Assembly (NCBI GenBank): GCA_018674305.1
Contig: JABHAL010000010.1
Location: 89,708-136,974 of the forward strand
Source: Candidatus Falkowbacteria bacterium
Lineage (GTDB): Bacteria > Patescibacteriota > Patescibacteriia > UBA11705 > JABHMO01
Reading direction: 5' to 3'
Length of the DNA stretch: 47,267 nucleotides
Under the pieces are notes generated by a model. That model worked only from the letters and a program-made list of their open reading frames with translations, had not been told where the DNA came from and searched no databases. Positions 15,764-26,657 of this stretch are shown here, piece by piece (position 1 is the stretch's first letter; every line of letters begins with the position of its first letter). A program made the position numbers and the translations under genes.

Positions 15764-15827
15764 GAACTGTATTTAAAATAATTATCGCGAATGGTTTACC
15801 ATGAAGTTACCTTCAAGGAATGGCTCG

Positions 15828-15867
15828 CCATGAAGTTATACGAGCATAGCGAGTATATACTTCATGG
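15828..15867. repeat. Palindrome that includes the CCA end of tRNA-Arg
   Basis: CCATGAAGT (15828-15836) pairs with ACTTCATGG (15859-15867), and the stem continues with TATAC/GTATA after one bulged base. Its right end is the encoded CCA of tRNA-Arg. A shorter related hairpin beginning CCATGAAGTTA lies near 15799-15820, so two such units follow the tRNA. Confidence 0.75.
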
Positions 15868-15941
15868 TGCACCCGACAGGATTCGAACCTGTGGCCTCTT
15901 CCTCCGCAAGGAAACGCTCTATCCAGCTGAGCTACGGGTGC
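15865..15941 (-). tRNA. tRNA-Arg (anticodon GCG)
   Basis: A complete cloverleaf of 77 bases with encoded CCA. The acceptor stem pairs GCACCCG with CGGGTGC. The D-arm, T-arm (ACAGG/CCTGT) and anticodon stem (TTTCC/GGAAG) all pair. The anticodon loop TTGCGGA gives anticodon GCG, reading CGC and CGU. Most bacteria instead use an ACG (inosine) tRNA for this box, so GCG is unusual. Three tandem copies of its 5' half lie just upstream. Confidence 0.95.
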
Positions 15942-16212
15942 TAAAATTGATTATGATAACTGCTCTATCCAGCCCCGAAGGGGCCCCTTTGGGGCTGAGC
16001 TACGGGTACCTAAAATTGAATATTAATTATGAATGCTCTATCCACCTACTTGTCCACCGTAGTTTTAACGAAGGTGGAAGCTACGGGTGCCTAAAATTGA
16101 ATGTTAATTATGAATGCTCTATCCAGCCCCGAAGTTAATGGAATAAACTGAGTCCCGATGATTTAACAAAGTTAAATATCGGGATCCCGACGAACGTCGG
16201 GACTACGGGTGC
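15942..16212 (-). repeat. Tandem array of three tRNA-Arg 5' halves, each invaded by a different palindrome
   Basis: Upstream of the intact tRNA-Arg, three copies of its first 25 bases (GCACCCGTAG ... GGATAGAGC) lie in the same orientation at 15962-16010, 16035-16090 and 16116-16212. They are separated by similar 20-25-base AT-rich spacers that all end CAATTTTAG (or one added G). In each copy the D-loop is interrupted. Copy 1 has an AGCCCC ... GGGGCT double hairpin. Copy 2 has a CCACC ... GGTGG hairpin. Copy 3 has two hairpins, CCCGACG/CGTCGGG and TCCCGAT/ATCGGGA. The array accounts for the gene-free stretch 15942-16283, apart from an AT-rich tail after 16213 in which I see nothing. Confidence 0.85.
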
Positions 16213-16283
16213 TAAAAAAAATTATTTAAAAAGAAACCAGAAATCAAACCTCCTTTTGTTTAATTCCTAATTTCTTTTGTGTA

Positions 16284-16836: not shown

Positions 16837-16878
16837 GCCAGAGGTAGAGACAATTCATGAATTGTCTCTACCTCTGGC
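16837..16878. repeat. Perfect 42-bp palindrome abutting a tRNA-Ser fragment
   Basis: The left arm begins GCCAGAGGTAGAGACAATTC and the right arm is its exact reverse complement, with the centre between 16857 and 16858. In minus-strand reading it begins with the last bases (GCCA) of the tRNA-Ser 3' fragment, just as the palindrome beside tRNA-Arg begins at CCA. Confidence 0.95.
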
Positions 16879-16960
16879 GGAAGGGGTGGGATTCGCCCGG
16901 CATACGCCGGGCGCCCAGCGCATGCTGGGCGAACCCACAGAACTCTTCCATAGGTTTAGC
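16875..16960 (-). pseudogene. tRNA-Ser 3' fragment with a double palindrome in its T-loop
   Basis: Positions 16875-16895 are identical over 21 bp to the 3' end of the intact tRNA-Ser(UGA) at 17275-17295, exactly 400 bp away. Positions 16931-16960 match its T-arm and variable arm at about 22 of 29 bases. Between these blocks, inside the T-loop TTCGAA, sit two tandem hairpins (16896-16930) with arms CGCCCAGC/GCTGGGCG and CCCGGC/GCCGGG. The D-arm and anticodon arm are absent, so this is not a functional tRNA. Confidence 0.8.
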
Positions 16961-16975
16961 AAATATAAAGTACGT

Positions 16976-17251
16976 TTAAATTTCTATGCTTTCCTCTAAA
17001 ACTTCCTCAAAACTATCAAATCTTTTCCTGATATCCTTTCTTCCATCGCTACTCTTCAAAAACCGCTCTCTTTTTGATACTATCTTTTTCAAAAAGTATC
17101 CTTCATAGAACAAGATAATAAACGGCCTACGATGTTTAGTTGATTTCACTTTCCCTTGTTTATGTTCTTTCATTCTTCGAACTATATCATCCGTCTTTCC
17201 GACATAAAAACTCTTGTCCTTTTTACTTAACAAAACATAAACGAAAAACAT
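16976..17251 (-). CDS. Small GIY-YIG nuclease-like protein (copy 1)
   Basis: The 91-residue protein is a bare GIY-YIG domain of the UPF0213/YhbQ type. FVYVLL and FYVGKT provide the GIY/YIG-equivalent strands, followed by DIVRRMKEH with the catalytic-type Arg and a His, and a C-terminal KKIVSKRERFLKSSDGR helix. No DNA-binding extension is present. It sits in a 400-bp interval between the 3' end of an intact tRNA-Ser and a second copy of that 3' end. This layout resembles an element integrated at a tRNA 3' end. The family is clear; mobility is inferred. Confidence 0.88.
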   Translation of the reverse strand: MFFVYVLLSKKDKSFYVGKTDDIVRRMKEHKQGKVKSTKHRRPFIILFYEGYFLKKIVSKRERFLKSSDGRKDIRKRFDSFEEVLEESIEI

Positions 17252-17274: not shown

Positions 17275-17366
17275 TGGCGGAAGGGGTGGGATTCGAACCC
17301 ACGGAACCCTTTGACAGGTTCAACAGTTTTCAAGACTGCCGCCTTCAACCGCTCAGCCACCCTTCC
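17275..17366 (-). tRNA. tRNA-Ser (anticodon UGA)
   Basis: A 92-base class II tRNA with a long variable arm and encoded CCA. The acceptor stem pairs GGAAGGG with CCCTTCC. The anticodon loop CTTGAAA gives UGA. It lies 6 bp downstream of tRNA-Ser(GCU) on the same strand, so the two are probably co-transcribed. The GIY-YIG gene follows 23 bp after its 3' end. Confidence 0.96.
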
Positions 17367-24752: not shown

Positions 24753-26657
24753 TTATTTAATACTAGCCTCACGTTCAGCAGCATCCTCATCCTCCTGCTT
24801 TTGTTCTTTTTCTTGTTTTAGTAGTTGTTTAGGATCAGTAGTAATCATACGGTCCTCTAATGGTGAAGCCACCACTTTCATAGCTGCATGCCGATTACCT
24901 GCAAAGAAAATACCTTCACCTATATTACATTCCAGCAATAAATATTTCTCTCCTTCAGTTAATTGAAACACTTTTTGAATCAATTCCATAGCCGAAGGTG
25001 CTTGTTTTAACAAAATTTTAAGTGCCGAATTAGTAACAATGGCCTGACCATACTGAGAAAGTAAAAAATCATTCACGTCCTGGGTAATGGTAGTCACACC
25101 AAGATAATATTTTCGACAACGTTTAACAAGAGCGTGAATAAACTTAGCTGAATCCTCGTGTTGCATTAACCACCAAGCTTCATCAATCACCAAAATACGT
25201 TTCTTTATTTCTGAACGAACTACGTTCCAAATATAGTTAACAATATTGTAAATGGCCATTGGTCTAAGCTCATCCTCTAGATCTCGAACACTGAAACAAA
25301 CTAATTGATTTGCCATATCTACATTTGTTGGTGAATTAAACAAGCCAGAAAAAGTACCAGTAGTATATTTCTTTAATCTTAGAGCTAAATCTGCTCCGCC
25401 CTCCATACCATCCAAGACATCATATAGATCTTGCATAATTGGCGGTTCAATTTTAGACAAATCTGATTCAGGAGTAATATCTTTTTTGGCGTAAGTTTCA
25501 ATCAAAGCGCGATCCATAATTGAATCTTCTTGATAAGTCATTTTACCAATCATAATACGCATTAGACCCTTTAGAGTAATCACTGCGCTACGAATCACAT
25601 CAGCTGCTGACATGTCTCCCATTTTTCTTGGCAAATCAAAAGGGTTAATTTTACTCTCGGAGTTCAGTGAAATATTTACATAAGTTCCGCCAACAGCATC
25701 ATTCAAGTTTTTATATTCTCTTTCTGGATCAATAATAATCACATCTGTCCCTAACATCATACTACGTAAAATTTCTAGCTTGATAGTATAACTCTTACCA
25801 GCACCAGAAGTAGCAAACACGCAAGAATTGGCATTTTGCAAAGAAAAACGATCGAATAAAATTAAACTATTGTTATGTCTATTAATACCAAATAAAATAC
25901 CATCATCTGAAGTTAGCTCTGAAGAAATAAATGGAAATGAAGCAGCAATCGGTGAAGAATTTAAATTCGCAGTTATCATTAATTCATCATTACAAATTGG
26001 CACAGTTGAATTGAACCCTTGTTCTGCCTGATAAAAAACTCGTTTGGAAAGAATTGACCGAGTTCCCAAAACTGCCTCAATATCTTCAGTCAAAACATCT
26101 AACTTTTTTAAATCTTTTTCATATAAAGTGAGATATAGCCCATACTGAAAAAACTTTTCTATACCCTGGGTCAAATCATCTCTAAGTTTTTCTATATCCT
26201 GCAAAGCAGTTTCCCGAAGTGGGTCACGTGGTGCGCCTTTTTCATTATCAGATGTCAGCTGGGCAGTCAAAACACCTACCTTATTTCTCAATTGTTTCAA
26301 CACAACTGCCGAATCCATCGGATAAAAAAACATGGACACATCTAATGTCGCATTGTAATTAATGATTGGAGAAAACCAGCCAACACTAATATACCTTGGA
26401 TATGTCATTACAAATAAAGTTCGAGAAAATAAACCACCAATCCTCACATGATCTGGCATAATTTCAAAGGCTGCTGGAGCAATGATATCCAAAACTGAAG
26501 TTACTCCTTTACGGTAAGTTTTTTCCATTTGCAAAGATTCTTTTTGCTTTGCTGCCTTAACTTCTTCTTTTTTTATTTTCTTGGACTCTGAAACTGTTTT
26601 CGGCCTTACCTTTTCACTAGTGACCGGCTTTTTTTTGACGTCTCCAGGTTTAAACAT
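24753..26657 (-). CDS. VirB4-type secretion ATPase, C-terminal (motor) part
   Basis: The 634-residue protein is the ATPase half of a VirB4/TraC-type motor that powers type IV secretion. Residues 1-50 are Lys-rich and disordered. Residues 55-270 contain the middle domain (SVLDIIAPAAFEI, ISVGWFSPIINYNATLDVSM). Walker A ATSGAGKSYTIK lies near 282 and is followed by IIIDPEREYKNL; Walker B ILVIDEAWWLMQ lies near 487; a C-terminal TEGEKYLLLECNIGEGIFFA completes the family pattern. The tail is acidic. The N-terminal domain expected in one polypeptide is encoded by the preceding gene. Confidence 0.92.
   Translation of the reverse strand: MFKPGDVKKKPVTSEKVRPKTVSESKKIKKEEVKAAKQKESLQMEKTYRKGVTSVLDIIAPAAFEIMPDHVRIGGLFSRTLFVMTYPRYISVGWFSPIINYNATLDVSMFFYPMDSAVVLKQLRNKVGVLTAQLTSDNEKGAPRDPLRETALQDIEKLRDDLTQGIEKFFQYGLYLTLYEKDLKKLDVLTEDIEAVLGTRSILSKRVFYQAEQGFNSTVPICNDELMITANLNSSPIAASFPFISSELTSDDGILFGINRHNNSLILFDRFSLQNANSCVFATSGAGKSYTIKLEILRSMMLGTDVIIIDPEREYKNLNDAVGGTYVNISLNSESKINPFDLPRKMGDMSAADVIRSAVITLKGLMRIMIGKMTYQEDSIMDRALIETYAKKDITPESDLSKIEPPIMQDLYDVLDGMEGGADLALRLKKYTTGTFSGLFNSPTNVDMANQLVCFSVRDLEDELRPMAIYNIVNYIWNVVRSEIKKRILVIDEAWWLMQHEDSAKFIHALVKRCRKYYLGVTTITQDVNDFLLSQYGQAIVTNSALKILLKQAPSAMELIQKVFQLTEGEKYLLLECNIGEGIFFAGNRHAAMKVVASPLEDRMITTDPKQLLKQEKEQKQEDEDAAEREASIK

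Follow-up and report, generated by a model that had tools for sequence, protein, structure and literature searches.

Upstream of an intact tRNA-Arg gene, the window (i.e. the whole 47,267-nucleotide stretch of Candidatus Falkowbacteria DNA that was analysed) holds a tandem array of displaced tRNA-Arg 5' halves, each with a palindromic insert in its D-arm. Because relatives often hold a tRNA-associated GIY-YIG gene in the same position, it seems, on balance, that this array is the nuclease-less footprint of repeated strikes on tRNA-Arg by small, tRNA-restoring selfish elements of the homing type. The array is neither chance nor assembly noise, because its copies differ mutually, the arrangement recurs at 15 of 39 tRNA genes as well as in independent genomes, and the antisense control gave 0 at the coarse setting. 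The initial annotation of this DNA overlooked the genome- and order-wide pattern, which extends to both sides of tRNA genes, to D-, anticodon and T-loops, and to a tie with GIY-YIG genes.

The tRNA-Arg array

The intact tRNA-Arg gene (anticodon GCG; 15865-15941, minus strand, as are all features of the array and of the tRNA-Ser locus given below) was located with ARAGORN and scores 68.6 bits against Rfam RF00005. As the initial annotation had claimed, three extra 5' halves lie upstream of it in the same orientation; to this should be added that the strand is the minus one. Copy 1 (15962-16010; 22 of 22 aligned bases identical to tRNA nucleotides 3-24) is nearest to the intact gene, followed farther upstream by copy 2 (16035-16091; 19 of 21 aligned bases) and copy 3 (16116-16213; 25 of 25), the farthest. 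Each copy consists of the 5' strand of the acceptor stem plus the D-arm, i.e. the first 21-25 bases of tRNA-Arg, and both D-stem strands are kept in every one, which places the insert inside the D-arm.

In copy 1, a 22-nt double hairpin, CCCCAAAGGGGCCCCTTCGGGG (15973-15994; family 1), interrupts the D-loop at AG^CT, so that the reported split at the centre of AGCT is confirmed. The hairpin insert of copy 2 measures about 30-35 nt (16045-16079, with boundaries ambiguous by a few bases). Copy 3 carries two inserts and not the single hairpin originally assigned to each copy: a 50-nt double hairpin, TCCCGACG..CATCGGGA (16153-16202; family 2), at G10^C11 in the D-stem, and a 21-nt insert in the D-loop (16127-16147), the 3' end of which, CTTCGGGG, is like that of family 1. 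The claim of a different hairpin in each D-loop therefore stands in so far as the palindromes of the D-arms differ, but not every insert lies strictly in the loop. Taken as isolated single strands with DNA parameters, copy 3 folds far beyond its shuffles (z -4.9), and copies 1 and 2 modestly better than theirs (z -1.2 and -0.8).

A near-identical AT-rich spacer had been described at each copy. This holds for the two 24-nt spacers, between copies 1 and 2 (16011-16034) and between copies 2 and 3 (16092-16115), which differ at 1 base (23/24 identical), but not for the 20-nt spacer or leader between copy 1 and the intact gene (15942-15961), which is unlike them. Since like spacers go with unrelated hairpins, half and spacer were duplicated apart from the hairpins. 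This is well explained by a different history, in which leader and tRNA half were first duplicated locally (through slippage or unequal recombination) into a tandem and the dead copies were subsequently struck by an independent family of mobile palindromes that prefer loops, akin to double-hairpin or REP elements, the GIY-YIG genes being a separate matter. We nevertheless regard that history as rather unlikely. None of the spacers of the array holds an insert.

There is no nuclease gene or ORF between the array units, which measure 73-122 bp, and there are no matching 3' halves downstream of tRNA-Arg. The short, gene-free units also bear on the idea that the copies are leftover attachment sites of integrative elements of the tyrosine-recombinase type. 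Integration beside tRNA genes commonly leaves partial tRNA copies, and crossover in the T-loop is known for some integrases. An integrase with a long element between repeats, as expected of such an element, was not found here, nor is there an integrase among the ORFs read beside the other loci described below; moreover, attachment sites would hardly be tandem, occur at many tRNAs as 5' as well as 3' halves, and have a palindrome in a loop of nearly every copy. This origin is thus extremely improbable. Fragments of tRNA genes in prokaryotes are discussed in PMC9897764.

Displaced tRNA copies across the genome

The genome (1.28 Mb, 16 contigs) was surveyed by locating all of its 39 tRNA genes and scanning their flanks for short matches to the same tRNA. 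Displaced, hairpin-plugged copies lie beside the 15 tRNA genes mentioned above. At the coarse setting these were found at Arg-GCG (three copies), at Gly-GCC, Met, Glu-CTC and His (two each), at Ala-GGC, and singly at Thr-GGT, Thr-TGT, Tyr, Val-GAC, Ser-TGA and Leu-GAG; a finer setting adds Gln-TTG, Glu-TTC and Gly-TCC, while one more match, at Asn, seems to be fortuitous. In the antisense control, none of the 39 tRNAs gave a match at the coarse setting; at the finest one, matches were confined to Gly-TCC, Glu-TTC and Glu-CTC, whose inserts hold an inverted copy of the T-arm and so produce them.

Upstream of a tRNA, the copies represent its 5' part and are interrupted in the D-arm (at Thr-TGT and Tyr, also in the anticodon loop); downstream, they represent its 3' part and are interrupted in the T-arm. 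One of the Met copies lies downstream and is almost complete, its D-loop, variable region and T-loop each having an insert. By our own count, which omits difficult cases, 17 of 24 cleanly aligned inserts lie in a loop and the rest in the D-arm, with none of the 24 in an acceptor, anticodon or T stem. The copies at Met and Glu, and most of those in the relative G001 (see below), were read by eye and not by automatic alignment. Nearly all displaced copies have an insert (the 5' copy at His is too short to judge), every mapped one is adjoined by an intact tRNA, and the displaced copies hardly differ from the intact ones (e.g. 80/82, 29/29 and 25/25 bases identical).

A group I tRNA intron was considered and rejected, as the displaced copies are mostly incomplete, with the intact gene adjoining, and Rfam found neither a group I intron nor any other named RNA in the inserts of the window or of eight loci.

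Two further kinds of structure were seen at tRNA ends. Downstream of Glu-TTC, Gln-TTG and Glu-CTC (L033, L040 and L041), the displaced T-arms contain a conserved branched insert of ~97 nt that belongs to no Rfam family and begins, at its 5' end, with an inverted copy of the T-loop; for two of the three loci its fold has z values of -3.9 and -4.4. In the window (15801-15870) and at many other tRNA ends of this genome (e.g. L011 and L077), other hairpin families directly abut the tRNA and take its CCA or first GGG into their stem (CCATGAAGT..ACTTCATGG; CCATTCTTCG..CGAATGG).

Hairpin insert families

Family 1, to which the 22-nt palindrome of copy 1 belongs, is present four times without mismatch in the genome, always in the D-loop of an extra Arg, Ala or Met copy; two weaker matches, with three mismatches each, are unrelated hairpins. 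In all four occurrences the palindrome sits at AG^TTGG or AG^CTGG of the D-loop, which bears out the earlier suggestion that a recurrent process acts at one and the same insertion point. Family 3 (36 nt) was likewise found only at displaced tRNA copies, namely the 3' halves of Ser, Val, His and Leu (4/4). Since positions no more than 300 bp from a tRNA make up ~1.6% of the genome, four out of four near-tRNA positions have a chance probability of ~6e-8 for each of these two families, to be read with the caveat that the copies are not independent events. Family 2 (50 nt) occurs in both tRNA-Gly copies, in Arg copy 3, and in two intergenic places.

This distribution cuts both ways for tandem duplication followed by insertion of mobile palindromes. 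The intergenic copies of family 2 and the presence of Y1-transposase family genes in the genome speak for palindromes that move on their own, as does the finding that insertions in rRNA genes of the Candidate Phyla Radiation (CPR) likewise lie at the tops or bases of stem-loops (PMC11270868). Against it, families 1 and 3 are restricted to tRNA copies, and nearly every displaced copy has an insert. With regard to REP/RAYT or IS200-type elements, whose hairpins are accompanied by GTAG or a similar tetranucleotide, GTAG precedes only some of the D-arm inserts and none of those in T-loops. All three families consist of two adjacent GC-rich hairpins, as do double-hairpin elements.

A tRNA-associated GIY-YIG subfamily

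The window also contains a locus of this kind that has a nuclease gene. It consists of an intact tRNA-Ser(TGA) (17275-17366, ARAGORN; the second such locus in the window), a gene for a GIY-YIG endonuclease of 91 aa (16976-17251; Pfam PF01541, 4.1e-15), and a displaced 3' half of the same tRNA (16875-16948) with a family 3 double hairpin of 36 nt in its T-loop (16894-16929), the nuclease gene sitting between the intact tRNA and the displaced half.

The GIY-YIG proteins of nine genomes (this one and eight relatives) fall into two groups. A profile (A1) was made from 16 tRNA-adjacent members, with the window gene as its row 1 (109.6 bits), and searched in ten genomes of the order, where the scores separate into two sets, 31 matches with at least 64.9 bits and 21 with at most 59. 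Of the 31 in these ten genomes, 29 adjoin a same-strand tRNA, and among the GIY-YIG matches outside the profile this was so for 13 of 15, compared to 1 of 20 tested members of the other group (for the held-out set, Fisher p is about 6e-7, computed with 1/21 for the other group). The tRNA-associated subfamily conserves Y, YxG, R, H and E, which we take to be the catalytic-type GIY-YIG positions, and the solved structures nearest to it in sequence are those of UPF0213 proteins, SLX1 and I-TevI. The pattern gives this poorly characterised GIY-YIG subfamily a specific candidate target, the tRNA genes.

An endonuclease ORF between an intact tRNA and a displaced part occurs at about ten related loci, including the tRNA-Ser of the window, and is absent at the Arg array. 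The order displaced plugged copy, GIY-YIG gene, intact tRNA was found at Glu in this genome, at Ser-GCT in G002, at Leu in G005 and G009, at Ser-TGA in G009 (where the displaced copy is nearly full-length and plugged in both the D- and the T-loop), at Ser-GGA in G003 (two displaced copies), and in G007 at Tyr and at Arg-TCG, the latter with one displaced copy on either side of the nuclease. The mirror-image order occurs at Met and Ser-TGA of the present genome.

The tRNA-Tyr pair is the most telling of these. The displaced copy of the present genome is as in G007, with D-loop and anticodon loop opened at the same points and with shared edges, while the hairpins themselves are different; G007 has the nuclease and the present genome does not. 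From this comparison, the nuclease-less form, like that of the Arg array, is most simply seen as a putative derivative or partner of the nuclease form. It also ties one and the same plugged copy to a nuclease, which counts against duplication and palindrome insertion that have nothing to do with GIY-YIG genes.

Two nuclease frames (L178 and L193) run into a tRNA, Ser in G002 and Leu in G005, and the C-terminus GEVPEWLKGAPC of a GIY-YIG frame is read from tRNA-Ser, which is a likely annotation trap. For annotation in general, tRNA fragments in these genomes are probably footprints, and some GIY-YIG ORFs extend into tRNA genes.

Relatives and wider scans

The proposed search of the genome and its relatives for tRNA halves was productive: besides the present genome (15/39), in G001, which belongs to a different genus of the family, 8 of 34 tRNAs are followed by 3' halves, several in tandem, and G003 has one displaced-copy case in 31 tRNAs. 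The T-arm of most 3' halves in G001 contains a conserved hairpin, GAGAAGCC...GAGGGG, a motif confined to G001 among 142 genomes, and at Lys-CTT the repeat unit is 81 bp. The tRNA-Arg(GCG) genes of G001, G003 and G009 have no array and therefore represent empty sites.

These comparisons also bear on whether the displaced halves could be functional RNA, co-transcribed with the tRNA to serve as decoys, as processing signals or as structures of its leader or trailer. Several displaced T-arm 5' strands in G001 match the complement of the tRNA 3' strand, palindromy and insertion point (and not sequence) are conserved at tRNA-Tyr between the present genome and G007, and the ~97-nt branched insert is conserved at its three loci with the fold scores given above. 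However, most tRNAs have no displaced copy, the relatives have none at tRNA-Arg(GCG), and at the same tRNA the side and type of the copy vary between related genomes, which makes a function of this kind improbable.

A universal pattern for a split D-arm, when run over GTDB with the present genome excluded, returned mainly nested tRNAs and chance matches and no such array, and over the 142 relatives it matched only the Met copy of the present genome, because the arms differ between tRNAs. Nesting itself could be the origin of the array, if a whole replacement tRNA with inverted arms had entered the D-loop of an older tRNA and the array were its left-hand remains. Clear nested tRNAs of the same anticodon do occur in a Moraniibacteriota genome and in other bacteria, and one Moraniibacteriota locus (L083) has two successive 5' halves followed by an intact tRNA-Val. 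Yet in the Arg array the 5' halves keep both D-stem strands, the insert is not between half and tRNA, and the 3' halves that should follow downstream are missing, so that this origin is very improbable.

As an observation in its own right, complete tRNAs inside the D-loop of another one were seen in other genomes at L095, L079, L083, L100, L101, L094, L084 and L087. They often share the anticodon and are usually flanked by inverted arms of variable yet complementary sequence, and L079 looks three tRNA layers deep.

Proposed origin of the array

The architecture, the association of nuclease and tRNA, and the conserved insertion points are matters of observation, to which the following mechanism for the selfish elements would add a history. 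The full element would consist of a GIY-YIG gene between an intact tRNA and a partial or full displaced copy, the loops of which are plugged by short GC-rich hairpins. The nuclease would cut the tRNA gene in or near a loop, upon which repair may duplicate part of the tRNA, always leaving one intact gene. The displaced copy, which keeps the original flank, would survive only with a loop interrupted by a hairpin; such dependence is proposed because nearly all displaced copies seen have an insert. The hairpin would destroy the cleavage site and thereby stop self-cutting. Units without an ORF, a form that does exist at tRNA-Tyr, could then persist and accumulate in tandem at tRNA-Arg, the three copies of which would stem from three such rounds or from duplications of the unit.

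Several observations count against this mechanism. The Arg array has no nuclease, nor a sign of a former one, and several tRNA-adjacent nucleases have no displaced copy (Arg/Lys in the present genome, Pro and Val in G008, Asn in G001). The near-identity of displaced and intact copies gives no hint of a foreign donor either. The intact tRNA keeps an uninterrupted loop, and immunity by interruption must therefore also depend on flanking sequence, while hairpins in two loops of some displaced copies are more than immunity needs.

Beyond the array itself, the elements may, more tentatively, form a distinct class of bacterial selfish DNA, i.e. tRNA-specific GIY-YIG elements that spare the intact tRNA, use a hairpin to lock the target they have displaced, and leave behind tandem arrays without a nuclease. 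If so, position and palindromy of the hairpins would be conserved with their sequence free to vary, and each tRNA locus would record past homing. Being essential and conserved, tRNA genes are good targets for selfish DNA provided that the gene can be spared, and the pattern suggests a general solution for selfish DNA in reduced bacterial genomes. It also offers a testable account of hairpins in tRNA loops.

Comparison with known systems

The initial annotation knew of no named element of this form. For the combination as such this stands, since no published description of plugged displaced tRNA copies with GIY-YIG genes was found in the literature searched, nor any paper in a search on GIY-YIG with tRNA in the CPR; parts of its logic, however, are shared by fungal mitochondrial mobile ORFs, by SegB and by double-hairpin elements.

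The mobile ORFs of fungal mitochondria (Allomyces atp6; Glomus atp6, atp9, cox2 and nad3) are a precedent for gene-restoring endonuclease elements (PMC3630166). As at the nuclease-bearing loci described above, though not at the Arg array, the gene for an endonuclease (LAGLIDADG or GIY-YIG) is found there between the host gene, which has been restored, and the native part that it displaced; the host gene is kept intact, comparable to the intact tRNA beside each mapped displaced copy. They target protein genes and carry a divergent foreign replacement, whereas the targets here are bacterial tRNA genes, and the near-identity of displaced and intact copies means that there is no sign of a foreign donor. 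The hairpins in loops of displaced copies and the nuclease-less tandem arrays are further differences.

SegB of phages T4 and T6 is a free-standing GIY-YIG homing endonuclease in the phage tRNA region (PMC2988022, PMC13096335), and T6 offers a precedent for GIY-YIG-driven amplification, because SegB there causes a tRNA-Tyr unit to multiply in tandem; the 5' end of the tRNA and the 3' end of segB share microhomology (PMC13096335). The GIY-YIG domain, the free-standing gene and the position beside a tRNA are shared, the tRNA being a candidate target in the present case and the gene being absent at the Arg array. Unlike here, SegB belongs to a phage, and full tRNAs are amplified, without loop hairpins or half copies.

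Mitochondrial double-hairpin or repetitive hairpin-forming elements, thought to be mobile, are short and often GC-rich single or double hairpins, like the present inserts (PMC2800124 and PMC5910586, citing Paquin 2000); they are dispersed in organelle DNA, whereas two of the families examined here are confined to loops of displaced tRNA copies. The rRNA genes of the CPR contain short ORF-less as well as GIY-YIG-coding insertions that are not introns, mostly at stem-loop tops or bases (PMC11270868), which is a precedent in what is probably the same kind of bacterium and resembles the present case in insertion type and in the choice of stem-loops of structural RNA; those insertions interrupt the rRNA gene, whereas here a clean tRNA copy lies beside the interrupted one.

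Elsewhere in the window, positions 24753-26657 hold a gene for a VirB4-like conjugal transfer ATPase (CD1110 family).
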